A stretch of DNA of 20,661 nucleotides from a virus: positions 1 to 20,661 of IMG/VR virus record IMGVR_UViG_3300002242_002150. One strand, 5' to 3'. The first letter of the stretch is position 1. Every line of letters begins with the position of its first letter. A program made the translations under genes and the position numbers. The notes under the pieces are model-generated. The model was given only the letters and a program-made list of their open reading frames with translations, ran no database searches and was not told where the DNA came from. Of this stretch, positions 1-20,661 are shown piece after piece.

Positions 1-258
1 CCACTTAAGGGTGTTATTATTGGTAATGGCTCAACAGGTTCAATCTCATTTGATACCTATGATTGGGAATTTAAAGGACAGAAGGGAACTTCTATGGCTT
101 TAAAGAATGTACTAGTAACAAACCTTATCCCTTACGAAGCCGCAGAAGCTCCTGGAGCTGAGTTTGGTAAGACAGATGGTTCTGAGTTTGGTTCAGAGGA
201 AAGCCCTTTTAAGGATGATGCTGACCTAGATTTAGATATTGAAGATGATGAGTTTTAA
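1..258 (+). CDS. single-stranded DNA-binding protein, C-terminal part (T7 gp2.5-like)
   Basis: The reading frame is open from the first base, so the 5' end lies outside the window; 85 residues are visible. They contain a beta-rich stretch (IGNGSTGSISFDTYDW, then FKGQKGTSMALKNVLV and LIPYEA), followed by a linker rich in Gly, Ser and Glu and a very acidic tail ending DIEDDEF. An acidic tail with a terminal Phe is typical of gp2.5-type and other SSBs and is used to contact polymerase and helicase. The position at the head of a T7-like replication arm fits. The call rests on tail and context, because the N-terminal OB-fold is not visible. Confidence 0.78.
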   Translation, partial: PLKGVIIGNGSTGSISFDTYDWEFKGQKGTSMALKNVLVTNLIPYEAAEAPGAEFGKTDGSEFGSEESPFKDDADLDLDIEDDEF

Positions 259-412: not shown

Positions 413-547
413 ATGAGATATTACTTAATATTAATAGGTTGGTTAGTGTTTTCAACAGTAGCCATTATAGGTATAGCTAACGCAGGAAGTAACTATGATT
501 TCCCTGCAGAGGATACAACAAAGGAGGTAGAATGTACAAGAATATAA
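413..547 (+). CDS. small protein with signal peptide or membrane anchor, 44 aa
   Basis: ATG follows a good ribosome binding site (AAAGGAGAG). The predicted product begins MRYYLILIGWLVFSTVAI and has one hydrophobic segment of about 18 residues. That segment ends in an ANA-G-like site near residue 25, which could be a signal peptidase I cleavage site, followed by a short acidic polar tail. The last 16 bases overlap the start of pyrD, so translation of the two may be coupled. No homologue is recognised. It could be a small envelope-directed phage protein; the function is unknown. Confidence 0.55.
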   Translation: MRYYLILIGWLVFSTVAIIGIANAGSNYDFPAEDTTKEVECTRI

Positions 548-1653
548 TTAGACCGGTATTGTTTGCATTTGATGCCGAGGAGATTCATGATAACCTAAAG
601 AAAGTTCTAGTTGTTTTAGGTAAGTGTAAGTTAACTAGATTTATAATTAAGAAGATGTTTAGATATGAAGATAAGATTCTAAACACAGTAGTAGATGGTA
701 ACTCTTTTGAGAACCCGGTGGGACTATCAGCCGGCTTTGATAAGAACGGTGAGATGTTAAACATTGTAGGTGAGTTCGGATTTGGCTTTGAAGAGGTTGG
801 CTCAATCACAGGTGAACATTGTGATGGTAATCCAAAACCTAGAGTACATAGGGCTAAGACAACAGGCACAGGTTCAATCAATGTCTGGAATGGTCTTAAT
901 AACTATGGGTCTAAGGTTCTAGCACCTATCATTAAGAAAGAGATGGAAACATCTATTGCAGTAGGTGGTATATCAGCGGCAATGCTTAACTTTAATGGAA
1001 GTGTTGAAGAAGGTATAGAAGACTATGTTAAGACAGTTAGAGAGTTTGCCGGTATAGGTAAGTTCCTAGTTGTTAATATTAGTTGTCCTAATACTGTACA
1101 AGGTGAGCCGTTTATGATTGGTTACAACCTAGAGAAGTTACTTAAAAGACTTAAAGAAGTACGTGAGGAAACAGGTGACTTGAAACCTTGGTATGTTAAG
1201 GTCAGCCCGGATATAACTTTACAAACTGTTCATACGATTGTGAATGTATGTGACGCAGAGGGAGTTAATGGTATTGTTACTACTAACTTAACTAAAGTTA
1301 CTATCCCAGGTGTGAAGAATGCTATCAGGGAGAAAGACCTTAAAGATTGCCCTACAGATAGAGGAGGAATGTCTGGTGAGTTAGTTAGACATAAATCTAA
1401 TATCGTTCTTAAACAAGTAGCTAATCATATTAAAGCTAAAGGTTTTGATATGGTTGTATTAGGTGTAGGTGGTATTACTACAGCTGAGGATGCTTATTAT
1501 AAGATTAGAAATGGAGCATCTTTATTATTACTTATTACTTCTTTTGTCTTTGAGGGACCTAAAGTGGTTAGTGATATTAATAAAGGTCTAGCTGAGTTAC
1601 TTAGAAGAGATGGATTTAGTAGCATCAGTGAAGCTGTAGGGGTTGATCTGTGA
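532..1653 (+). CDS. pyrD: dihydroorotate dehydrogenase, class 2-like
   Basis: Oxidises dihydroorotate to orotate using FMN, the fourth step of pyrimidine synthesis; class 2 enzymes sit on the membrane and pass electrons to quinone. At 373 residues it has the class 2 layout: an N-terminal amphipathic helix region (MYKNIIRPVLFAFDAEEIHD), then NPVGLSAGFDKNGE, GFGFEEVGS, NGLNNYG, KVSPDIT, GGMSG, VGGI and the C-terminal FVFEGP and DGFSSISEAVG segments seen in E. coli and eukaryotic class 2 enzymes. The catalytic-base motif reads NISCPNT (Cys185), where class 2 enzymes normally have Ser and class 1 enzymes Cys. The start has a strong site (AAAGGAGGT). It heads a metabolic cassette in a phage, so it is a likely auxiliary metabolic gene. 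The family is certain; the electron acceptor is inferred. Confidence 0.93.
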   Translation: MYKNIIRPVLFAFDAEEIHDNLKKVLVVLGKCKLTRFIIKKMFRYEDKILNTVVDGNSFENPVGLSAGFDKNGEMLNIVGEFGFGFEEVGSITGEHCDGNPKPRVHRAKTTGTGSINVWNGLNNYGSKVLAPIIKKEMETSIAVGGISAAMLNFNGSVEEGIEDYVKTVREFAGIGKFLVVNISCPNTVQGEPFMIGYNLEKLLKRLKEVREETGDLKPWYVKVSPDITLQTVHTIVNVCDAEGVNGIVTTNLTKVTIPGVKNAIREKDLKDCPTDRGGMSGELVRHKSNIVLKQVANHIKAKGFDMVVLGVGGITTAEDAYYKIRNGASLLLLITSFVFEGPKVVSDINKGLAELLRRDGFSSISEAVGVDL

Positions 1654-1808
1654 GTGGTGAGAATAAAAACGCTATACTTGTCACAGAGCGTAAGCTTTGG
1701 AGAGAACTAGAGGGCATGGGTCCTCCTTTAAAGGAAAGAGATTTTAAAGTATTCAGGGAAATAGAAGCCTATGCTCGTAGTGAGGTTAGGCGTTTAAGAA
1801 GGGAATAA
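1650..1808 (+). CDS. small charged protein, 52 aa
   Basis: Starts at a GTG that overlaps the pyrD stop codon by four bases and ends one base before the next ATG, so it fills the gap exactly. The product (MSGENKNAILVTERKLWRELEG...) is highly charged, largely helical in appearance, and ends in an Arg-rich stretch (SEVRRLRRE). It has no signal peptide or membrane segment. No family is recognised. The tight fit between two genes and the good length for the gap argue that it is real, although the ribosome binding site is weak (TAGGGG). Confidence 0.5.
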   Translation: MSGENKNAILVTERKLWRELEGMGPPLKERDFKVFREIEAYARSEVRRLRRE

Positions 1809-1809
1809 G

Positions 1810-2769
1810 ATGAAAGTAAGTGATGTATTAGTAAAGGCTCTCGAAGACCAGGGAGTTGAATATGTATTTGGCGTACCCGGTGAAGAGAATGCTGATTTTA
1901 TGCAGAGCTTACATAAGTCTGAGAAGATTACATTTATCCTAACCCATGATGAGTCTGCGGCTGGTTTTATGGCGTTAGCTTATGCACAAGTAAAGGGAAC
2001 TCCAGCGGCTGTAGTGGCTACTCTGGGTCCCGGTGTGACTAATCTAGCGACCTCGTTGGCTCAAGCTACTCAGGATGGTGCGCCTTTGATTGCTATTGTA
2101 GGACAAGGGTCTACTATGCGATTAGAGAGAGATTCTCACCAGATTATTAATCAGGTTGAGTTCTTGACACCTATCACCAAAAGGGTTACACCTATCAGAG
2201 TACCTAGTGTTGTCTATAAGCAAGTTGAGATAGCTGTCAAAGAATCTCTATCAGGTAAAGCAGGTGCGGTTGTATTAGAGTTGCCGGAAGATGTTGCTAA
2301 AGAAGAAGCAGTAGTGAGACCATGTGTTAAACCTACTAAGCGTTATCAAGAGATTGATGAAGGCTTAATAAGACAAGCGGCTAAGTTAGTAAGAGATGCT
2401 GAGAAGCCCCTTGTTCTCATAGGTGCAGGTGTTCATAGGGAAAGAGTAACAGAGGAGACTAGAAACCTAATCAATAGACTTAATCTAAGAACAGTTAATA
2501 CTTTCCAAGGTAAAGGTGTCTTTGGAAATAACACTGTAGGTTTTATGGATGGTCATAATCTTGAATTGGTAGATGAGTCAGATGTGGTAATTGCTATCGG
2601 GTATGGTCAAGTTGAGTGTGCCGCAGAGAAGCTTAGATTACCAGAGAGAGGTAGAAAGATAATTCACATTTGTATTGAGAAGCATTCTTTTGACCCTATC
2701 TACTCACCTGATATAGACCTTGTTGGGAATATGTCAGATATTATTTATAGACTAACGGAGGAGATATGA
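1810..2769 (+). CDS. acetolactate synthase-like TPP enzyme, N-terminal half (PYR and central domains)
   Basis: 319 residues covering the pyrimidine-binding domain (about 1-170) and the Rossmann-like central domain (about 185-319) of the acetolactate synthase family. Family features are visible: FGVPGEEN near the start, HDES with Glu48 in the position of the cofactor-activating glutamate, LGPGVTNLATSLAQATQDGAPL, HQ...FLTPITK, then NTFQGKGVFG and VVIAIGYGQVE in the central domain. These resemble the catabolic AlsS type most. The cofactor-binding PP domain is absent from this chain and is encoded by the next gene, whose ATG overlaps this stop codon. Both chains are presumably needed for one enzyme. 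Substrate is unproven; acetolactate synthesis from pyruvate is the natural guess. Confidence 0.85.
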   Translation: MKVSDVLVKALEDQGVEYVFGVPGEENADFMQSLHKSEKITFILTHDESAAGFMALAYAQVKGTPAAVVATLGPGVTNLATSLAQATQDGAPLIAIVGQGSTMRLERDSHQIINQVEFLTPITKRVTPIRVPSVVYKQVEIAVKESLSGKAGAVVLELPEDVAKEEAVVRPCVKPTKRYQEIDEGLIRQAAKLVRDAEKPLVLIGAGVHRERVTEETRNLINRLNLRTVNTFQGKGVFGNNTVGFMDGHNLELVDESDVVIAIGYGQVECAAEKLRLPERGRKIIHICIEKHSFDPIYSPDIDLVGNMSDIIYRLTEEI

Positions 2770-3263
2770 AACCTATTGAAATTCTAAAGGAAGTAAGAGA
2801 GATTTTAGATAAAGATGATATTCTAATCTCTGATGTAGGTAGACATAAGATGGAGATAGCTAGAAATTATGAAGCATTGGAGCCTGGTACTGTTCTTATC
2901 TCTAATGGTTTCTGTAGTATGGGTGGAGCAATCCCTGGTGCTATAGGTGCTTACTTAGCCAATCCTGGTGTTAAGATACTAGCGATTGTAGGTGATGGCG
3001 GGTTTCAAATGTCTATGAGTGAGTTTGAGACAGCAGTAAGAGTTAAAGCAGATATAACAGTAGAGGTTTGGGTTGATGGTGGTTTTGGATTAATCAAGCA
3101 AAAGCAAGATAAACAATTCGGCTGTCATACAGATTTAGATTTTGGGAATCCTGATTATGAATTATTAGCTAAGTCTTTTGGGTGGTTTTACTCTAAAGAT
3201 TTAAAACAAGCTTTTAACCATACGGGTCCATCATTAGTAGTAAGGGAGGTAGACTATGAATGA
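2766..3263 (+). CDS. acetolactate synthase-like TPP enzyme, C-terminal half (PP domain)
   Basis: 165 residues that match only the diphosphate-binding domain: IEILKEVREIL, ISDVGRHKMEIARNY, ISNGFCSMGGAIPGAIGA, then GDGGF with the metal ligand Asp77, followed 27 residues later by Asp104 in WVDGGFGLIKQK, and DFGNPDYELLAKSFG near the end. Catabolic acetolactate synthases have a WND motif at the same spacing, so Asp104 can be the second metal ligand. It starts with its own strong site (GGAGGAG at 2757-2763) and an ATGA overlap with the N-terminal half, so it is a designed two-gene split and not a simple frameshift. The linker present in fused family members is missing. Probably forms a heteromer with the upstream product. 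Confidence 0.85.
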   Translation: MKPIEILKEVREILDKDDILISDVGRHKMEIARNYEALEPGTVLISNGFCSMGGAIPGAIGAYLANPGVKILAIVGDGGFQMSMSEFETAVRVKADITVEVWVDGGFGLIKQKQDKQFGCHTDLDFGNPDYELLAKSFGWFYSKDLKQAFNHTGPSLVVREVDYE

Positions 3264-8228: not shown

Positions 8229-8550
8229 GAACACCTAGCACAAAGATGTTAGGAGGTTAAGATAGCACCTATAAGCTATCGGTACATAAAAGGAGGTGTC
8301 CTATCTCGACCACAACGGTCGTAAGCTGTAGATTCACAACCTACAGTCTGTACCACGTACATGGCTAGCAGCTGTGTACTCTCCTAGGTAAGAGAAAAAC
8401 TGCCTATCAAACATACTACGTTTAGGACCGTGGTGTTACGGACGACCCCCTTACCATCATGTCACATGATACTACTCTCGGGGGTGCAGGTGTCCAAAAA
8501 AGTCCTAGGGTTTAACTTACCCTAGGCATTAATTTAACAAGGAGAAACAA
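8229..8550 (+). ncRNA. candidate structured non-coding RNA: run of about nine hairpins
   Basis: No gene occupies these 322 bases. Reading along the + strand, stems can be drawn at 8234-8240/8247-8253, 8261-8266/8275-8280, 8307-8311/8317-8321, 8326-8331/8341-8346, 8357-8366/8370-8379 (ten pairs, three-base loop), 8403-8405+8409-8412/8420-8426, 8428-8431/8438-8441, 8445-8450/8480-8485 enclosing 8456-8461/8465-8470, and 8504-8511/8519-8526. GGAC at 8440-8443 can also pair with GTCC at 8492-8495, competing with part of the neighbouring stem. A translation start with AAGGAG follows at 8551. This density of stems is far above ordinary phage spacers. It resembles no tRNA, tmRNA or ribozyme that I recognise. 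It could be a leader of the reductase operon, a free RNA, or a set of hairpin promoters. Confidence 0.6.
8496..8526 (-). terminator. intrinsic terminator facing leftwards
   Basis: The perfect eight-pair stem 8504-8511/8519-8526 has a seven-base loop. Read on the - strand it is followed after two bases by six T residues (AAAAAA at 8496-8501 on the + strand), the classical terminator form. On the + strand the hairpin has no T run, so it would stop antisense transcription only, or serve as a 5' stabilising hairpin for the downstream mRNA. Confidence 0.5.
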
Positions 8551-8775
8551 ATGGATAATAGACTATTAGAGGATTGTATAAAAACAGTTTTAGAAGCTGC
8601 TCATGCAGATGGTTTAGATATAATGAGAATGGCAAAAGACCTTTCAGACTTTCATTCCCTTATTCAAGAGGATGATGGATTGTTCTCAGGGTACAAGACG
8701 TATTCTTTAGTTAGTAGGATGTACTACAGAAGGCTTAACGAGTTAGGTCTATTAGATGATGATGAGGATGTATGA
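8551..8775 (+). CDS. small acidic protein upstream of nrdA, 74 aa
   Basis: Follows a clear AAGGAG site and overlaps the nrdA start in ATGA style. The product is helical and acidic (MDNRLLEDCIKTVLEAAHAD..., ending LGLLDDDEDV). No membrane segment and no recognised domain. Coupling to nrdA suggests a link with the reductase or simple co-expression; nothing in the sequence shows which. Confidence 0.7.
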   Translation: MDNRLLEDCIKTVLEAAHADGLDIMRMAKDLSDFHSLIQEDDGLFSGYKTYSLVSRMYYRRLNELGLLDDDEDV

Positions 8776-10553
8776 GAAATTATTTAGGTATAAAAATTGA
8801 TTTTAAGAGAGATGAGAAACTCACTGAACAAGCTAAGGAACTACTAGGTAGTTATTACTTGCGAGGAAATGAGAAGAGTCCACAACAAGCTTATGCGAGA
8901 GCCGCAGTAGCCTATTGTGGTGGAGATTTAGATTTAGCACAGAGGTTATATGATGGGGTTAGTAGCGGTTGGTTTATGTATAGTAGTCCTATTCTTAGTA
9001 ATGCACCTGAGCCGGGTGACGAAGCGCAAGGTTTACCAATTAGTTGCTTCTTGGCTCATGTTCCCGATACTCTTGATGGTCTTATTAGTCATCAATCAGA
9101 GTTGGCATGGCTAAGTGTTAAAGGCGGTGGAGTTGGAGGTCATTGGTCAGATGTACGTGCAGTAAGTGATAAAGCACCATCACCAATACCATTTATGAAA
9201 GTAGCTGATTCAGCAATGACAGCTTATAAACAAGGAAAAACAAGGAAAGGAAGTTATGCAGCATATTTGGACATCAGTCACCCGGACGTTATCGAATTTC
9301 TTAACATTAGAGTACCTACTGGAGGCGACCCGAATCGTAAGTGTTTTAATATTAACAATGCCATTAATATTACTGACAGTTTTATGGATGCTGTTCTGGA
9401 CGGTAGGAGTTGGGATCTTGTGGATCCTCACGACAATAGCGTTAGGGATACGCTCGAAGCTAGAGACTTATGGCAACGCATTCTCGAAACACGTTTCAGA
9501 ACGGGTGAACCGTACCTTAACTTCATTGATGAAAGTAATAGACATCTTCCGCAAGCTTTAAAAGACCATGGTTTGGAAATTAAAGGCTCAAATCTCTGCA
9601 ATGAGATTCACTTACCGACAAATGAGGAAAGAACAGCCGTGTGCTGTTTGTCTTCTCTTAATCTTGAAAGGTTTGATGAGTGGAAAGACACATCTTTAGT
9701 AGGTGATTTAATCACTATGCTCGATAATGTTATTGATGCTTTTGTTCAGGGAGCGCCACCGGAAATGCATAGAGCTATTAACTCAGCTAAGACGGAGAGA
9801 AGTTTAGGATTAGGTGCTATGGGTTTCCATAGTTACTTACAGTCCAAAAATATCCCTTTTGAGTCTGCAATGGCTGTAGGTAGAAACAAGATGATGTTTG
9901 AACTTATTAAAGATCAAGCTCTAGTTGCTACCCAAAAATTGGCTTTAGAGAGAGGTGAGTACCCATTAGGTGAAGGCACAGGTGTACGTAACAGTCATCT
10001 GCTTGCAGTAGCACCAAATGCAAACTCAGGTATGATTCTAGGAACATCACCCTCTATTGAACCCTTAAAGTCCAATGCATTCACTCACAGAACACGTGTA
10101 GGTGCACATCTTATCAGAAATGAACATCTAGTAAAAGTTATGAAAGAGCATAGATTAAGATTAGGTAAAGATGATGAATGGTTAGAAAGGGAATGGAGAA
10201 ATATTATTCACCACGATGGTTCAGTACAGCAACTAGATTACCTAGATGAATGGGAGAAGGATGTATTTAAAACAGCTTTTGAGTTAGACCAACATTGGAT
10301 TGTACAACACGCCGCAGATAGACAAGAGTATATTTGTCAAGGTCAAAGTGTAAACTTATTTTTCCCAGCCGGGACAGATAAGAGCTATGTGAATAGTGTA
10401 CATATTAAAGCTTGGAAGTCTAAACTTAAAGGTTTATACTACTTACGTACTTCTGCAGGTGAGACAGGTGAGAAGGTTGGATCTAAGGTAGAGAGTAATA
10501 AGATTAAGGATTTTAAAATAGGAGATGATGAGTGTTTAGCTTGTCAAGGTTAA
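8772..10553 (+). CDS. nrdA: class I ribonucleoside-diphosphate reductase, large subunit
   Basis: Reduces ribonucleoside diphosphates to deoxy forms together with NrdB. The 593-residue chain has the active-site set: Cys92 in PISCFLA and Cys291 in AVCCLSS as the redox pair, and Asn274, Cys276 (thiyl radical site) and Glu278 in SNLCNEI. It also has LAVAPNANSGMILGTSPSIEP, the radical-transfer tyrosines Tyr556/Tyr557 in LYYLRT, and a C-terminal CLAC (Cys588, Cys591) for regeneration by thioredoxin or glutaredoxin. It is much shorter than E. coli NrdA (761) and starts directly in the barrel region, so the N-terminal ATP-cone that mediates dATP inhibition is missing. Translation is probably coupled to the 74-residue gene, and nrdB starts one base after the stop. 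Confidence 0.95.
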   Translation: MRNYLGIKIDFKRDEKLTEQAKELLGSYYLRGNEKSPQQAYARAAVAYCGGDLDLAQRLYDGVSSGWFMYSSPILSNAPEPGDEAQGLPISCFLAHVPDTLDGLISHQSELAWLSVKGGGVGGHWSDVRAVSDKAPSPIPFMKVADSAMTAYKQGKTRKGSYAAYLDISHPDVIEFLNIRVPTGGDPNRKCFNINNAINITDSFMDAVLDGRSWDLVDPHDNSVRDTLEARDLWQRILETRFRTGEPYLNFIDESNRHLPQALKDHGLEIKGSNLCNEIHLPTNEERTAVCCLSSLNLERFDEWKDTSLVGDLITMLDNVIDAFVQGAPPEMHRAINSAKTERSLGLGAMGFHSYLQSKNIPFESAMAVGRNKMMFELIKDQALVATQKLALERGEYPLGEGTGVRNSHLLAVAPNANSGMILGTSPSIEPLKSNAFTHRTRVGAHLIRNEHLVKVMKEHRLRLGKDDEWLEREWRNIIHHDGSVQQLDYLDEWEKDVFKTAFELDQHWIVQHAADRQEYICQGQSVNLFFPAGTDKSYVNSVHIKAWKSKLKGLYYLRTSAGETGEKVGSKVESNKIKDFKIGDDECLACQG

Positions 10554-10554
10554 T

Positions 10555-11511
10555 ATGAGTTTATTAGATGAGAGTAAGGTCTATAAGCCCTTCAAGTACC
10601 CTTGGGCGATGGAGGTCGCTGAAGACCACGAGAAGATCCATTGGGGCACATGGGAGGTCAAACTTCAAGAAGATGTAGACCAATGGAAACAAGGTAAGAT
10701 TACAGATACGGAGAAGAATCACATTACACAGATTTTTAGATTGTTTACTCAATCAGATGTGCAAGTGGCTCAGAACTACTGTGACTTATTCATACCTAAG
10801 TTTAAGAATAATGAGATTAGGAATATGCTACTATCTTTTGCAAACCGTGAAGGTACGCACCAGAGAGCTTATGCGTTGCTTAATGATACATTAGGTTTTC
10901 CTGATGAGGAGTATTCAGCATTCTTAGATTACAAACAAATGGTAGCAAAAATTGATTTTATGCAAGACAATGATGTGAGTACATTACATGGATTAGGTAA
11001 GTCATTGGCACAAACCTGTATCAATGAAGGTATGAGCTTGTTCTCAGCATTTATTATGTTACTTAACTACCAGCGTTTCGGTAAGATGAAAGGGATGTGT
11101 GAGGTCGTTGAGTGGTCTATTAGGGATGAAACTAAACATGTGGAAGCTATGACTAGACTCTTTAGGGAGTATTTAGAAGAGCATCCTAGGTTAGTCACAG
11201 ATGAGTTTAAGTCAGATATTTATAAAATGATTAGGACAGCTGTTAAGTTAGAAGATAAAGTAGTAGATTTAGCGTTTAAACTTGGAGATGTTGAAGGATT
11301 GACAGCTAAAGAGGTTAAAAAGTATATTAGATATATTGCTGATAGAAGACTTATTCAACTAGGGCTTAAACCTAATTATAGAGTAAAAGAAAACCCTTTA
11401 CCTTGGGTAGAGTGGATTATAGGTGGCGACAGTTTCAAGAACTTTTTTGAGGGAACTGTTACAGATTATAATGCGGCAGGAATGTCAGGAGATGATTGGG
11501 GATGGAAATAA
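10555..11511 (+). CDS. nrdB: class I ribonucleotide reductase, small subunit
   Basis: 318-residue ferritin-like radical subunit. The metal ligands and the radical site can be placed by comparison with E. coli NrdB: Asp68 (QSDVQ), Glu99 and His102 with Tyr106 four residues on (REGTHQRAY), Glu158 (NEGMSLFSAF), and Glu192/His195 (RDETKHVEA). The retained tyrosine suggests a tyrosyl-radical di-iron (class Ia-like) enzyme, though metal type cannot be read from sequence. The C-terminus ends GDDWGWK, probably the tail that docks on NrdA. It starts one base after nrdA and forms one transcription unit with it. Confidence 0.95.
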   Translation: MSLLDESKVYKPFKYPWAMEVAEDHEKIHWGTWEVKLQEDVDQWKQGKITDTEKNHITQIFRLFTQSDVQVAQNYCDLFIPKFKNNEIRNMLLSFANREGTHQRAYALLNDTLGFPDEEYSAFLDYKQMVAKIDFMQDNDVSTLHGLGKSLAQTCINEGMSLFSAFIMLLNYQRFGKMKGMCEVVEWSIRDETKHVEAMTRLFREYLEEHPRLVTDEFKSDIYKMIRTAVKLEDKVVDLAFKLGDVEGLTAKEVKKYIRYIADRRLIQLGLKPNYRVKENPLPWVEWIIGGDSFKNFFEGTVTDYNAAGMSGDDWGWK

Positions 11512-14051: not shown

Positions 14052-17000
14052 TTAACCTCCTCTAATGACATTAGTAAACATTTCAGTTGGTTGAGCACCT
14101 AAATCAAACTCACGGTCTAAAGATAAACCAGACTTCTTAACCATAGCTATGATGTTCTCTACAGACTCACCAGTAGCCTCAGCTAGACCTTCAATCATCT
14201 TATCCCTAAGATTATAGTTAGCGTGCATATCTTGGAACACCTTACCTGCTAATTGCTTTACAGCTTTAACATCGTTAGGGTGCGCAAAGAAAGCATCATG
14301 TACTACTCTTAGTTCAATACCTTGATCTGCAGCAGCTTTAACTAGTCTATGTAAGTAAGCTGAGTCTAAGCTATGAGTAATATTAGGAGCTAGTCCTTGA
14401 ACTGTATCCTGAATATCTACTTCCATCTCTTTGACCCCTAGAGGACCCTTCTTGGTCTTAGGTTCAGCTGTATAGACAAGAACTTCTTTAGCAGCTCGGT
14501 CTGTCTCTATGTCAGGTAATCTCTCAGCTTTGATCTCTCCCCTGAAGGTCTTCTTAGGTTTCATAACGTACCTAGTTAGGTCTGTCATGCCCCCATCGGG
14601 TCCTTCAACTTTGAAAGGTTTACGGTTCTTAGAGTTCTTATAAATCTTACCAAGAACCTTGTTGAACTGTTTAAACTCGTACTGAGTCTTCAAACCTTCT
14701 TTAAGAGCACCTTGCATATTCTTCCAATGGAAACCCATTAGCTCTTCAGCATCGATACCTGCATCAGACATCTCTAGTCTTTGTCTACCTGTAAGTTGAC
14801 TAACCAAATCTTTATATAGTGAATCATCACCAGCACCATAAGGTACCTTCATAACGATAGGTTTAACTACACCACGACCACTTGATAGGTATTTATCAGA
14901 GAAGAATTTGAAAGCTTGAGCCTTCTGTGGATCTTGGGCTGCTAAATCAGCAAACCCTTTCTCAACATTCTTACTATATAAAACACCTACATCAGTATAT
15001 AAGTCACGTGCAACTGAATCATCTGGAACACCAGCTGTAAGACTTCTTATCTCAGCATTAGTTAAAACTTTACCTTTACCAACTGGTTCAGTTAAAACAC
15101 TAGTCTGCCATAAGATACCTTCATCACCATATTGAGCACCAATGTGCTGAGAACCTGAAGAAGGAGCATCAACCTCAATCATCATATCAGATTCATAAGG
15201 AGTATGCTTACCGGCTAATTCTTTATCAAACTCGCCTCGCTCTACTCTATTGATTAGTTCATCAACCTCACCTTGAGGTAAACCATCTGGATTATCAAGA
15301 ATCTGTTCTTTCTCTTTTATTCTTAAATAATCAAGCATATCAGGAGAGTCGCCCTTAGAAGCATTCTTAATCTTTGCAATTTCCATTACAGCTCTTAAGT
15401 AAGGTCCCTTATCTTTCTGAGCCTTAAGCCACGATGGGTTCCAATCAGGGTTATCTACATTACGTAGAGCCTCATCACCTTGTTGAAGATACTTGTTTTG
15501 ATTCTTAGCCCAATGAGCATGTCTATCTAAACCAGTACCTTGTATCTTACTAAGTTTAGCCGTCTCATCAAACAACACTAAGTCATCTACGATCTGATTA
15601 AATCCTTCATCACCGTAAGAGATAGGTTTCTTAGCTCCTGTAAAACCATGACGTATAGCACCACCAGAGGTTATCGAAGCACCACTAGGGTCTATCGGGT
15701 AAACTCTACCACGTGTATCTACGTTATGTTGGAAGTAAGCACCTGCATCATCACTATTCTCAAAGCGTCTATCTAGTTCTTCAGAAATACGTCTAACAGA
15801 AGACTGTTTAGCAGTTCTCTGGTTACGCATAGTCTTAGTTTCTCTAGCTATAGCCTCTAAAGCTTTAATACGAGGAGTAAAGATCTCATCCTTAAGTTTC
15901 ATAAATTGACTAGCTGTCATACCTTCAGGGTTCTCTAAGTCACCTCTAATTTGTACAACATCAAAAGCTTCATTAAGTTCATCATACTCGTTTGGAGTTA
16001 ATTTCTCCATATCAAGTTTCTCTTTAAATTTAGCTACTGGTTCAGCAGTCTCTTTAAATGCACCTTTCTTACCTAGGTTCTTCCAAAGCTTATAGAAGTC
16101 TTTATCCATACCAGTCTTGTGACTACCTAAGATATTAAGTGAATCAGCAATAAGTGGGAATGCAGAATCTGAAACATCAGCTTTAGTTCCACCAGCAAAG
16201 AAGTCAACCTTAGTGGACCCTTGAGGGTACTCTAGTACTTCACCATCTTTACCAATCTTCCATGTACCGTGAGGTTTAACAGTAGAAGGGTTACGAACTT
16301 CTGTAACATCATCAAATGCTCTAAGCACAGTACGTCCACCAGCCTTAGCCCAATCTTTGAACTCAGAAGAGGTAGTTAGATGCAACTTTTGACCAAACGA
16401 GGTCTTAAGCATATCTTCCTTAATAAACTTACCCATATTACCACGAGCAAACTCTAACATCACAGCACCAACTTCACGTCGTTGTTGTGGAGTCATACGT
16501 TCATCACCAGCTTTCATCATCCTAGACTCAATACGTCTACCTAACTTATCCAGCATATCTTGAAGAGATACTCTTTCATAGACTTTCTCACCACTGATGT
16601 TTTTAAATGCACCAGCTGAGTTCTCATCTATAATCTTTAGAACATCTGCAGCAAAACCTGCTACGTTCCTATCCGATAAATCCTTATCACCTAATAACTT
16701 CTTAATAGCACTACTCTTACGCATATCTGCAAGAGCACCTTTAAAGTTCTTAGTGAACTTACCTAAGTCACTTACTACATTAGAACCTACGTCCGTTAGT
16801 ATCTCAGTTTGAGGTAAATGTTGACTCTTGTCTACATCAGTAAACTTTCTAGGAAGTAAACCTATCTTTTGATCAGCGAATACCGTTTCCCCCGTTTTAG
16901 CAGTTCTATTGGTACGCCCCTCTGGACCCCAATTTAACCACGAGTTCTGACCTCTAGTTTCTGTAGCTAAAGCCCTTTGAGCCTTAGGAGAGAACATAGC

Positions 17001-18068
17001 TGAATGTGATAAGAACGCATTCTCTTCACCGTCACCTCTAAACCCTACACCTTCTTTAACGTGACCATAATAGTCATGCACAGCTCTAAATACATCATTA
17101 GCTGTAGCAGATTCATTACCAAACTTACGACCTGAGTCAGCTAATAAAGGATTATCTTTAAACTTAGCCTCATGTCCAAAACCTTGCTTAGTGGGAAATA
17201 CCCACATGTGATTATTCTCAGTAACATCTTTAGTCATCATACGAGGATTAGGATAAGGATCAGGCATACCTTCTGGTATAAACTCAATCTTTAATCCACT
17301 CTTAACCATCTCATCATACTGAGCACCAGTCTCATCAATCATAGCTTGGTAAGCTTCTTTAACTTCTGGGTTATGAGGATCATGTTTCATCTCATCGAAT
17401 GCCTTAGCAACTTGACGAGAGAACCTAGGATCAATCTTCTTATACTCAACAGGTGGTTTGTAATCCATACCTGTACTCTTCATATATCTACCAGCAGAGT
17501 CTAAAGCAGGTTGAAATGCACCAATAGGTGTATCTACTCCTTCGATATCTGTTGGGAGACCCTTAAGGTTCATATTAGGATCTCTTTCTACCTGTAATGG
17601 TTTAATCTCAAAGATCTCTTGTACATTCTGTTCAGGTATAAAAGTCTCAGGTAACTCAGGGTCATTAGGGTTCAATTGATGTCTACCTTGACCTAATTTA
17701 GCTGAATCAGCTGTCTCAGTTACTACACCAAACTCACGTGAACCATAAGCTGTAGTCTCATCAGCTACATTAGCTGGGGCAGCGAAGATACCTTCACCTT
17801 TACCAGCAGCAGCCGGAGTAGTACCAGAGCGATACTTGAAGTTTCCTTCGTGGATCTCCCCGGGACTATTAGTCCTATGGATAGCTACATCAATAGGAGT
17901 ATCTCCAAATTCAGCTTGTTTAGCTTCGATCTGTTGTAACCTGTTAGTTACTTGATCTGGCTTATCAGCTAACTTAGTGAGCTTATTTACAGCTCTCGTG
18001 TCACCTGCAGCGGCAGCACGTTGAATTGCTTTATTAATCTGTCCTACGACAGCATTGACAAAACTCAT
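14052..18068 (-). CDS. virion-type single-subunit RNA polymerase fused to a phage polyvalent N-terminal region
   Basis: 1338 residues. The C-terminal part has the full T7/N4 RNA polymerase motif set: DTRGR at 784-788 (T7 DWRGR), motif A DAPSSGSQH with Asp967, motif B with Arg1065, Lys1069 and Tyr1077 in exact R-x3-K-x7-YG spacing, APNITHSLD, and motif C VVHDAF with His1257/Asp1258. The N-terminal part has AAGDTRA at 20-26 and a conserved phage domain with HDYYGH (331-336), GEENAFLSH and TETRGQNSWLNWG (369-381); residues about 55-130 may be an ADP-ribosyltransferase-like fold, which is a weak guess. It lies in the virion-protein arm, next to a Gly/Ala-rich 688-residue protein, which suggests that it is packaged and injected like N4 vRNAP. 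Start behind TAGGAGAAAC. The polymerase call is firm; packaging is inferred. Confidence 0.88.
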   Translation of the reverse strand: MSFVNAVVGQINKAIQRAAAAGDTRAVNKLTKLADKPDQVTNRLQQIEAKQAEFGDTPIDVAIHRTNSPGEIHEGNFKYRSGTTPAAAGKGEGIFAAPANVADETTAYGSREFGVVTETADSAKLGQGRHQLNPNDPELPETFIPEQNVQEIFEIKPLQVERDPNMNLKGLPTDIEGVDTPIGAFQPALDSAGRYMKSTGMDYKPPVEYKKIDPRFSRQVAKAFDEMKHDPHNPEVKEAYQAMIDETGAQYDEMVKSGLKIEFIPEGMPDPYPNPRMMTKDVTENNHMWVFPTKQGFGHEAKFKDNPLLADSGRKFGNESATANDVFRAVHDYYGHVKEGVGFRGDGEENAFLSHSAMFSPKAQRALATETRGQNSWLNWGPEGRTNRTAKTGETVFADQKIGLLPRKFTDVDKSQHLPQTEILTDVGSNVVSDLGKFTKNFKGALADMRKSSAIKKLLGDKDLSDRNVAGFAADVLKIIDENSAGAFKNISGEKVYERVSLQDMLDKLGRRIESRMMKAGDERMTPQQRREVGAVMLEFARGNMGKFIKEDMLKTSFGQKLHLTTSSEFKDWAKAGGRTVLRAFDDVTEVRNPSTVKPHGTWKIGKDGEVLEYPQGSTKVDFFAGGTKADVSDSAFPLIADSLNILGSHKTGMDKDFYKLWKNLGKKGAFKETAEPVAKFKEKLDMEKLTPNEYDELNEAFDVVQIRGDLENPEGMTASQFMKLKDEIFTPRIKALEAIARETKTMRNQRTAKQSSVRRISEELDRRFENSDDAGAYFQHNVDTRGRVYPIDPSGASITSGGAIRHGFTGAKKPISYGDEGFNQIVDDLVLFDETAKLSKIQGTGLDRHAHWAKNQNKYLQQGDEALRNVDNPDWNPSWLKAQKDKGPYLRAVMEIAKIKNASKGDSPDMLDYLRIKEKEQILDNPDGLPQGEVDELINRVERGEFDKELAGKHTPYESDMMIEVDAPSSGSQHIGAQYGDEGILWQTSVLTEPVGKGKVLTNAEIRSLTAGVPDDSVARDLYTDVGVLYSKNVEKGFADLAAQDPQKAQAFKFFSDKYLSSGRGVVKPIVMKVPYGAGDDSLYKDLVSQLTGRQRLEMSDAGIDAEELMGFHWKNMQGALKEGLKTQYEFKQFNKVLGKIYKNSKNRKPFKVEGPDGGMTDLTRYVMKPKKTFRGEIKAERLPDIETDRAAKEVLVYTAEPKTKKGPLGVKEMEVDIQDTVQGLAPNITHSLDSAYLHRLVKAAADQGIELRVVHDAFFAHPNDVKAVKQLAGKVFQDMHANYNLRDKMIEGLAEATGESVENIIAMVKKSGLSLDREFDLGAQPTEMFTNVIRGG

Positions 18069-18077
18069 AAGTTTCTC

Positions 18078-20144
18078 CTATTTAAAATAATGTGATAAAT
18101 CCCCATAGAGGTCAGTAAGACCTTTAACAGCCTTATCACCTAAAGCATCTCTAGTATCCTCGGCTTTATAACCTGTATATCCCCAAACACCAGCACCTAC
18201 CATAAAGTCTAGTAGTTTCTTAGTTTCCTTTGGACCAACACCTTTGCTTTCTAGCATTTTACCAATCTGACCTAAGCCTTTTTCTTTAGCTACAGCGTTA
18301 TTAGAGAATACCTTCATAGCTGATCTTTGGAAAGCCTTAGATTTAATTAATGCTTGGAAGATTCCTAAAGAACCTAAAGTACCAATTAGACCACCACCTG
18401 CAAAACCACCTGCGCCGGCAGCTAGTCTTGTAACAAACAGTCCAGCACCACCAGCATCATGTGCATTGTCTAAGATATTACCATAAACCTTCCATTCAGC
18501 CTCTGATTGAATATCACCAAATACTTTCTGTAATACCTTAATACCGCTCTTATTACCTAAGAAACTCTTAAGAGGTGCGGCATTATGGCCTGAGAATAAC
18601 ATCTCGTGTAAAGCTTTCTGTAAGTTTTGTTTCTGAAGATCACCGAAGTTCATATCACCTGATAACCTACCTAACTCATACATATCATCTAAGAACTCAT
18701 CTACTTTATGAGGGTCTTTAGAATTAAGAGCACCTTTTAACTTTCTAGTAGCAGCTGAGAAATTATCCATTGCATTGATGTTAGTTTTGTCATTCTTAAT
18801 ACCTAAGAACTTAGCATAATCTTTATCTAATTCACTAGCCATCTTACCTTTGCCTGCCTTACCAGCAGCACTATTAAATAAACCTCTAGCTTGTTTATAG
18901 AAACCACCCAATACTTGATCAGCACTAGTGTTAGTACCTACTCCTCTCTTAGCTTTATTAAATTCACTACCAAGAGTAGATCTAACTTTACGTAAAGCCT
19001 GAGTAGGTGTAAGATCACCTGATCTCATAAGAGCCGCAGTATCTTCAAGGTTAGCTATTCTATTAACACCTGGTCTACTATGTAAGGTATCAATAATAGC
19101 TTGTACTTCATTCTTGGTTACATTAATCTCACCTAGTTCATCATATCTCCTAGTAAACGCATCTTTAGCATCTGCAATAACATGACCAAGAGAATTTCCA
19201 AAACTTTCAGAAGCTTCAGCAGTACCTTCCTCACCTAAATTCTTAACAAGGTTTTCCTGTACTTCTCTAGCAACACCTTCTTTAGCAGCTTGACCAGCAC
19301 CAATAGCTCTCATACCACCTGCATAAGCACTTTTAACGGTCTTAATAGGATGTGCAATAGTCTTAGCAGTACCTTTAACAGCTTTACCTGTACCAGAGAT
19401 AACCTTACCAACACCTTTAATGGCAGCTGGAGCAACAGCACCTAAAGTAGTACCTAAGCCAGTAGCAATAGCAGTTCTAGTTGGATCATACTCTTGATCT
19501 TCATCTAGTTGCATCTCTACACCAGTTTGAGTACCAACATCATGTGCACCTGTAATACCACCAGCTACAGCACCTGATCTAGCACCTAAGCCAGTTAATA
19601 ACTTCTTAATACCTGCTTTACCTGCTTGATGCATAGCACCACCAGCGATGAACTTACCACCTACCCATGTAGATGGTGCCCATGCAAGAGCGCCAGCATC
19701 TTTAAATTGCTCCCAACCTGATCTTGAGCCTTCACCAGTAATATTAGTTTGCTCGTAGGTATTAAACATACGTGATGTTCTTTCCTTTTGCTTATCATCC
19801 ATTTGAGAGATATCAAAAGCTGTATCACCTAATGAAAGTTCATTAAGTAAAGAGCTATTCCAATATTCAAAGTTTTCTTCTTTTAGGTCATTTACATCAC
19901 CTTCAAAGTCAACACCTTCTCTATCCTTAAAATCATCTTTAAGATCTTGGACGTACTGTTCATTTTGATCTAACTTATCAAAGATTAGACCTCCATCATC
20001 AGCTTCCCAAGACTTCTGTTCAGGGGCACTACCACTTTCTTGTTCAACTATCATATTTTTTAAGAGCTTTGCTGCTCTTGTATCACCAGCATTATGAGCA
20101 TTCATAAATTTCTGCTCTAGCTGTTCAATAGTATATTCAGACAT
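18078..20144 (-). CDS. internal virion or DNA-ejection protein, 688 aa
   Basis: No enzyme motif seen. The N-terminus (MSEYTIEQLEQKFMNAHNAG) leads into AGDTRAA at 19-25, matching the same place in the neighbouring polymerase protein. An acidic linker follows. Then come long Gly/Ala-rich, weakly hydrophobic stretches (about 150-290) with amphipathic Lys-rich repeats such as GTGKAVKGTAKTI, a helical middle, and a hydrophobic segment near 570-605 (GAGGFAGGGLIGTLGSLGIF). This composition is usual in podovirus core proteins that leave the capsid and form a channel through the cell envelope. Strong start site AAGGAGG. The role is inferred from composition and neighbours. Confidence 0.68.
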   Translation of the reverse strand: MSEYTIEQLEQKFMNAHNAGDTRAAKLLKNMIVEQESGSAPEQKSWEADDGGLIFDKLDQNEQYVQDLKDDFKDREGVDFEGDVNDLKEENFEYWNSSLLNELSLGDTAFDISQMDDKQKERTSRMFNTYEQTNITGEGSRSGWEQFKDAGALAWAPSTWVGGKFIAGGAMHQAGKAGIKKLLTGLGARSGAVAGGITGAHDVGTQTGVEMQLDEDQEYDPTRTAIATGLGTTLGAVAPAAIKGVGKVISGTGKAVKGTAKTIAHPIKTVKSAYAGGMRAIGAGQAAKEGVAREVQENLVKNLGEEGTAEASESFGNSLGHVIADAKDAFTRRYDELGEINVTKNEVQAIIDTLHSRPGVNRIANLEDTAALMRSGDLTPTQALRKVRSTLGSEFNKAKRGVGTNTSADQVLGGFYKQARGLFNSAAGKAGKGKMASELDKDYAKFLGIKNDKTNINAMDNFSAATRKLKGALNSKDPHKVDEFLDDMYELGRLSGDMNFGDLQKQNLQKALHEMLFSGHNAAPLKSFLGNKSGIKVLQKVFGDIQSEAEWKVYGNILDNAHDAGGAGLFVTRLAAGAGGFAGGGLIGTLGSLGIFQALIKSKAFQRSAMKVFSNNAVAKEKGLGQIGKMLESKGVGPKETKKLLDFMVGAGVWGYTGYKAEDTRDALGDKAVKGLTDLYGDLSHYFK

Positions 20145-20153
20145 AATGCCTCC

Positions 20154-20661
20154 TTAATAAAGATCTAAAGCTGACTGTAAATCAGCACTTCTCTTAGTTG
20201 TTGTTTTCTTCTCACCAATCTTACCCATCTCGTGCATTCTCTTAACAGCATCAGGAGCCTCAATAGAACCATCTAATCTACCTAATAAATATTTAGCACC
20301 AGGTCCAGTATTAGCAGCCATAGTCTCAGTAGTAGACTTCATTTGCTGTAACTTGAACTTAACAGTCTCCGGATCATCACCCACTTGTGGGATATTCGTA
20401 GCGATGTAGTCCATGATCTCAGTCTCTGAGTAAGCAGCACCTGTATCAGCACGTAGTAATGATTGTAGCCAAGCTGAAGTAGCAGACTTGAACTTCTGTG
20501 GTAATTCATCACCAAGAGCCAAGTTAATACTTGCAGCAGTTACTTTATCATTCGCATGACCAGCAGCGTACGATTGTAGACCACCTAGGGCACTTGTAAG
20601 CTTATCAATGTTCTCAGGATTAGATAACATATTCTCAATAACTGGGAATGAATCCACAGAT
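20154..20661 (-). CDS. probable virion protein, C-terminal part
   Basis: The frame is open to the window edge; about 168 residues are visible and the 5' end is missing. The GTG at 20657 is inside the open frame and is not taken as the start. The visible part is helical, Ala/Ser-rich and soluble (SALGGLQSYAAGHANDKVTA..., ending KRSADLQSALDLY). It is cotranscribed with the two virion-type genes downstream, with nine bases to the next start, so an internal or ejection protein is likely. No family recognised. Confidence 0.6.
   Translation of the reverse strand, partial: SVDSFPVIENMLSNPENIDKLTSALGGLQSYAAGHANDKVTAASINLALGDELPQKFKSATSAWLQSLLRADTGAAYSETEIMDYIATNIPQVGDDPETVKFKLQQMKSTTETMAANTGPGAKYLLGRLDGSIEAPDAVKRMHEMGKIGEKKTTTKRSADLQSALDLY

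Follow-up and report, generated by a model that had tools for sequence, protein, structure and literature searches.

To our knowledge, the known single-chain RNA polymerases that are carried in virions all come from N4-like phages. In these phages (Schitoviridae), the replication genes on the plus strand are followed on the minus strand by the genes for the virion RNA polymerase (vRNAP, gp50), gp51 and gp52, and the vRNAP is followed in action by a second phage polymerase, RNAPII. The lack of cysteine in N4-type vRNAPs was noted earlier and tied to entry into the cell (PMC2784036). In Roseovarius Plymouth podovirus 1, the vRNAP carries an ADP-ribosyltransferase (ART) domain and is a polyvalent injected protein (PMC5512222). 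For StenR_269, the proposal of a vRNAP role was based only on size, helices and the absence of cysteine (PMC10747016). A gene with features of both the N4 vRNAPs and the T7-type enzymes of Autographiviridae (PF00940, phrog_414) is described here from a linear virus record of 20,661 bases, and this whole stretch of DNA is called the window below.

A T7-type polymerase gene and its domains

The 1338-aa product of the gene matched PF00940 (RNA_pol) in Pfam at residues 1019-1299 with 53.9 bits (1.7e-14; curated cut-off, 22 bits) and phrog_414, annotated 'RNA polymerase', in PHROGs at 9e-31, and its matches to T7 and mitochondrial polymerase chains in the PDB were weak. The PF00940 cut-off was also passed independently by divergent relatives (L003, 58.7 bits; L036, 50 bits). 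The initial annotation had named Arg1065, Lys1069, Tyr1077, Asp967 and Asp1258 as catalytic residues, and these were found exactly as described, with 291 residues between the motif A and motif C aspartates compared to 275 between D537 and D812 in T7. The DxxGR motif, a catalytic element that had not been listed, was present as well. The DxxGR, A, B and C motifs with their catalytic residues had the order and spacing of single-subunit RNA polymerases, and none of 20,000 shuffled versions of the protein contained the ordered set. The earlier claim of a complete single-subunit RNA polymerase is thus borne out by PF00940, phrog_414, the ordered motifs and the profile alignment to T7-type enzymes, which together confirm at the level of sequence that a catalytically complete T7-type enzyme is encoded.

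Table 1. Positions of the features in the window
Feature	Position	Strand	Remark
Cys-free T7-type single-subunit RNA polymerase gene	14052..18068	-	single frame, ATG start, 1338 aa
Polymerase part common to all relatives, residues 424-1338	14055..16799	-	catalytic motifs 784-1258
Motif C aspartate, residue 1258 in VVHD (T7 D812)	14295..14297	-	
Motif B, residues 1065-1077, Arg1065/Lys1069/Tyr1077 in RGVVKPIVMKVPYG (T7 R627, K631, Y639)	14838..14876	-	
Motif A aspartate, residue 967 in VDAPSSGSQH (T7 D537)	15168..15170	-	
DxxGR motif, residues 784-788 (T7 D421-R425)	15705..15719	-	
Clean insert, residues 161-422	16803..17588	-	missing in 1038-aa relatives; phrog_3170, function not assigned
N-terminal part shared with relatives, residues 1-160	17589..18068	-	
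688-aa Cys-free protein, next gene upstream of the polymerase	18078..20144	-	placed like N4 gp51; ejection role proposed
Cys-free protein truncated at the window end, C-terminal part	20154..20660	-	48% identical to the 928-aa protein of L003
End of ssDNA-binding protein gene	1..258	+	relatives: early-arm polymerase about 2 kb upstream

A profile search against T7 RNAP and the N4 enzyme had been proposed in the initial annotation, and the two halves of it came out differently. In hhalign, the family profile matched T7-type polymerases with an E value of 3.3e-18 across 562 columns, beginning near residue 555 of the window protein, and when the most distant copy (G019) was added the value was 4.2e-18. 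The N4-type vRNAPs gave no match to the family profile (E 0.44, and 0.16 with G019 added), nor did phrog_2206 (N4-type vRNAP) match the 1338-aa protein in the PHROGs search. A joint alignment that included the window, L003, L036 and the N4 vRNAPs showed that the T7 residues D421, R425, D537, the Q of SGxQH, R627, K631, Y639, G640, H784, H811 and D812 were identical in the window, L003 and L036. The N4 vRNAPs lacked several of these, including the equivalents of D421, SGxQH and H784, all of which were present in the window family. A tree placed the family on the T7-type side as a single, long-branched clade (100/100). An AlphaFold model built from 16 sequences was poor (pLDDT 53.9, pTM 0.39; TM about 0.2), and the top 17 PDB matches that Foldseek found with this poor model were all T7 or mitochondrial RNA polymerases. 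By these sequence tests, the polymerase belongs to the T7-type side and outside the N4 vRNAP family.

The enzyme has in common with the T7-type polymerases the catalytic domain and all catalytic residues, and it ends 80 residues after motif C compared to 71 in T7. In contrast to them, the window family is Cys-free, lies at the end of a late minus arm, has extra N-terminal domains and forms a deep separate branch. An N-terminal non-polymerase region is shared with N4 vRNAP, whereas the window family has T7-type motifs and no detectable sequence match to that enzyme. The family members are 1038-1342 aa long compared to about 3400-3800 aa for N4 vRNAP, and they end 80-130 residues past motif C without the large C-terminal domain of the latter. 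The initial comparison of its size with that of N4 vRNAP should be amended: complete relatives have 1038 aa (1342 aa in the distant one), the surplus of the window protein is an insert, and no domain like the C-terminal one of N4 vRNAP follows the catalytic part.

IMG/VR contained over a dozen contigs that encode the same protein at about 54-62% identity. L036 was more distant (36% to L003 and about 40% to the window core), and the G019 copy, a protein of 1342 aa, was the most distant, with 28.7% identity. No close relatives were found in bacterial genomes. The insert of 262 aa accounts for most of the surplus of the window protein over its kin, and its domain recurs in large proteins from other phages, including those of Planktothrix and Mycobacterium, with one such protein annotated as 'large polyvalent protein', and in IMG/VR contigs L009-L013, there without a polymerase match. 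The N-terminal 160 residues contain an AGDTRA helix motif that is also found in the product of the next gene, and as a guess this conserved part may serve packaging. By eye, residues 55-160 (17589-17906, minus strand) show an HRT...GEGIF...AYG pattern that resembles the ADP-ribosyltransferases of polyvalent proteins; no Pfam or other profile matched the N-terminal part as such an enzyme, and the assignment was rejected. The vRNAP of Roseovarius Plymouth podovirus 1 is similar in that a polymerase is fused with further domains and the whole protein is presumed to be injected, but that polymerase is N4-like whereas the window polymerase is T7-type with an ART resemblance by eye only.

Cysteine content and the minus arm

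There was no cysteine in the polymerase (1338 aa), in the 688-aa protein or in the fragment of the 928-aa type. At the rate of the plus arm of the window, the absence of cysteine from 1338 aa has a probability of 1.2e-8, and 17 cysteines would be expected from the base composition of the polymerase gene itself. All relatives, complete or partial and up to 1342 aa in length, were likewise free of cysteine. The same was true for T7 gp15 and gp16, for the vRNAP and its neighbours in N4, EE36phi1 and LIT1, and for the presumed ejection proteins of SIO1, VpV262, HMO-2011 and 1.208.B. T7 gp14 has 1 cysteine, the portal and tail proteins that were checked have 1-5, and the cytoplasmic single-subunit phage polymerases that were checked have 4-14. 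The absence of cysteine is the mark of a class of proteins and may have a different cause.

The polymerase gene is the last of the minus arm and converges on the plus-strand replication arm, so that the window reads replication genes (+) and then, on the minus strand, the polymerase, the 688-aa protein and the end of the 928-aa-type protein. The position at the junction of convergent arms, the lack of cysteine in the enzyme and in its ejection-type neighbours, and a second phage polymerase alongside are all features of N4 vRNAP. The neighbours showed no homology to ejection, tail or other known virion proteins in tblastn, Pfam, PHROGs and hhalign, and the contigs of the lineage all stop short of the capsid, portal and terminase genes. 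Of the initial description as a late minus-strand virion arm, strand and position were upheld; homology did not support the word 'virion', which is a label drawn from position and composition. Because the polymerase is encoded last in the minus arm, next to other Cys-free proteins, an injected virion enzyme is the best explanation, in agreement with the earlier proposal that it is carried in the particle.

The initial annotation had also described the SIO1/VpV262 type of phage as having T7-like replication but no RNA polymerase, which for SIO1 agrees with the cobavirus paper (PMC6775973), and had suggested that the window enzyme may be the one missing from these phages. The nearest relatives of the window DNA polymerase are indeed in Zobellviridae (Vibrio phage 1.208.B, 36.7%). 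The large internal virion proteins of this group (SIO1 gp26, VpV262 ORFU) also resemble the window polymerase in being Cys-free and encoded in a minus arm next to a similar replication module, but unlike it they have no polymerase motifs that we could find. In a search of low sensitivity, in which N4 vRNAP itself reached only 0.007, neither PF00940 nor the polymerase family matched SIO1, VpV262, ICBM1, CVT22 or 1.208.B, and there was no match in HMO-2011 either. Motif B was not found at the corresponding position in the big internal virion proteins of SIO1, VpV262 and 1.208.B (a look-alike of it was seen in some DNA polymerases), and the minus-arm proteins did not match Zobellviridae virion proteins. 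We therefore set the 'missing enzyme' suggestion aside as unsupported, as the window represents another lineage, and only the replication module ties it by sequence to SIO1/VpV262.

A second polymerase and a proposed course of infection

Nine related contigs that reach far enough into the replication or early arm carried a second PF00940 gene there, a polymerase that the initial annotation had not noticed. This early-arm polymerase is 742-743 aa where complete, has 6-7 cysteines and is an ordinary T7-like enzyme with about 27% identity to those of Autographiviridae. With both genes present in nine contigs, the lineage resembles N4 in having two single-chain polymerases. The statement that the enzyme is not encoded among the early genes thus applies to the gene in the window, but not to the second polymerase of its relatives. 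In G002 and G019 a ClpX-like gene and the second polymerase are followed by the exonuclease, ssDNA-binding protein, primase-helicase and DNA polymerase genes, and G019 shows the whole order and shares 69-76% identity with the window in the endonuclease, the DNA polymerase and the primase-helicase. As the window starts inside the ssDNA-binding protein gene, its own copy of the second polymerase, if present, would lie beyond the left end. In G027-G030, which include a 49.8-kb contig and carry more distant kin of the second polymerase (36-37%), this was the only polymerase seen. The two polymerases of one phage were joined in the tree only at support 54/50 and on long branches, and a recent duplication is not claimed. 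The ClpX-like ATPase gene, named by eye, lies directly upstream of the early-arm polymerase (L052 3791-5134; G019 21247-22596, minus strand).

We consider it likely that a virion-carried, ejected T7-type polymerase transcribes the first genes and that the early-arm polymerase acts after it. The first enzyme would be produced late with the rest of the minus arm and packed in the head together with the 688-aa and 928-aa-type proteins. It would then be ejected with the DNA, after or with the proteins encoded upstream of its gene, and would transcribe the incoming early arm including the gene for the second polymerase. The latter would probably take over later transcription and may use repeated TTAYRCGGAYGTATAGATA sites in the early arms of G002, G005 and G006. 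We infer the packaging, the ejection, the first-to-transcribe role and the presence of a second polymerase in the window phage itself. The scheme is like that of N4, with the difference that the virion enzyme is T7-type.

An ordinary, non-virion polymerase for late genes that merely happens to be placed at the end of the late arm would agree with the T7-type sequence and with the fact that no neighbour is proven to be a virion protein. This is unlikely, however, as the family has no cysteine despite divergence to 28.7% identity whereas the cytoplasmic polymerases checked, including the second polymerase, have 4-14; the neighbours are Cys-free too, and these phages already possess an ordinary polymerase in the early arm. 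More doubtful still is a true N4 vRNAP in shortened form that recognizes hairpin promoters and has kept more of the ancestral sequence. The failure of the profiles (E 0.44 and 0.16) and of phrog_2206 to match, the equivalents of D421, SGxQH and H784 that are present here and missing in N4 vRNAPs, and the missing C-terminal domain argue against such an origin, even though the gene position, the lack of cysteine and the second polymerase alongside are the same and N4 vRNAP is so diverged as to leave room for common descent as virion enzymes. The large N-terminal extension and the long branch might also suggest a polymerase relic that is injected but has no promoter-specific transcription, its role being that of an internal virion protein such as a DNA entry motor or a scaffold. 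We regard this as very improbable, because all catalytic residues are kept among members that are only 29-44% identical, which argues for selection for catalysis.

In the best reading, the T7-type enzyme is a small equivalent of N4 vRNAP that evolved independently and produces the first transcripts. We lean towards a second independent origin of a virion single-chain polymerase, in which a T7-type enzyme was turned into an ejected protein and infection starts without host RNA polymerase. With similar, modest confidence we suggest that all cysteines were lost on this route, that the N-terminal and exchangeable injected domains were gained and that another T7-like polymerase was kept for later genes. 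If true, the strategy of carrying a single-chain polymerase in the virion arose more than once, and the lineage offers an injected polymerase that is compact (about 1000 aa) and tractable and has to refold after its passage through a tail. Host-independent early transcription would also become directly testable in the lineage, and the absence of cysteine may tell injected from cytoplasmic members within one enzyme family.

Early-arm elements and cargo genes

A promoter-like repeat of about the length of a T7 promoter, TTAYRCGGAYGTATAGATAYAAA, was seen in the early arms of L052 (446 and 1357), L054 (1334 and 2991) and L055 (9831, 10952 and 12209, minus strand). It was absent from the window, and no promoter was identified for the Cys-free polymerase. 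Another element of about 60 nt is repeated before early-arm genes and has the core of a hammerhead ribozyme in type II order (GAAA - stem III - GUC - stem I - CUGANGAG); its stem II is reduced, and its loop I forms a pseudoknot with the 3' flank. It was found at L052 5, 3296 and 9599, at L054 126, 593, 1273, 2386, 4783 and 9811, and in L055 and others, but not in the window. The pseudoknot had 5 pairs in 16 of 16 distinct copies compared to a mean of 3.9 when the flanks were re-dealt. With Rfam, seven loci gave no hit at the gathering scores, and L054 1-5200 gave none at E 1. A possible role of the element is to process the 5' ends of phage transcripts.

Between the ssDNA-binding protein and primase-helicase genes, the window carries an unusual cargo (532-3263), consisting of a gene for dihydroorotate dehydrogenase and one for a thiamine-pyrophosphate enzyme that is split in two frames (1810-2769 and 2766-3263). 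At 8229-8771, between PhoH and NrdA, about 330 bases looked non-coding and contained apparent inverted repeats, and Rfam found nothing in this stretch. A two-gene NrdA/NrdB ribonucleotide reductase follows at 8772-11511, and its place is taken in close relatives (L003 12067-14007, G019) by a single reductase of 646-658 aa from another family (phrog_367).
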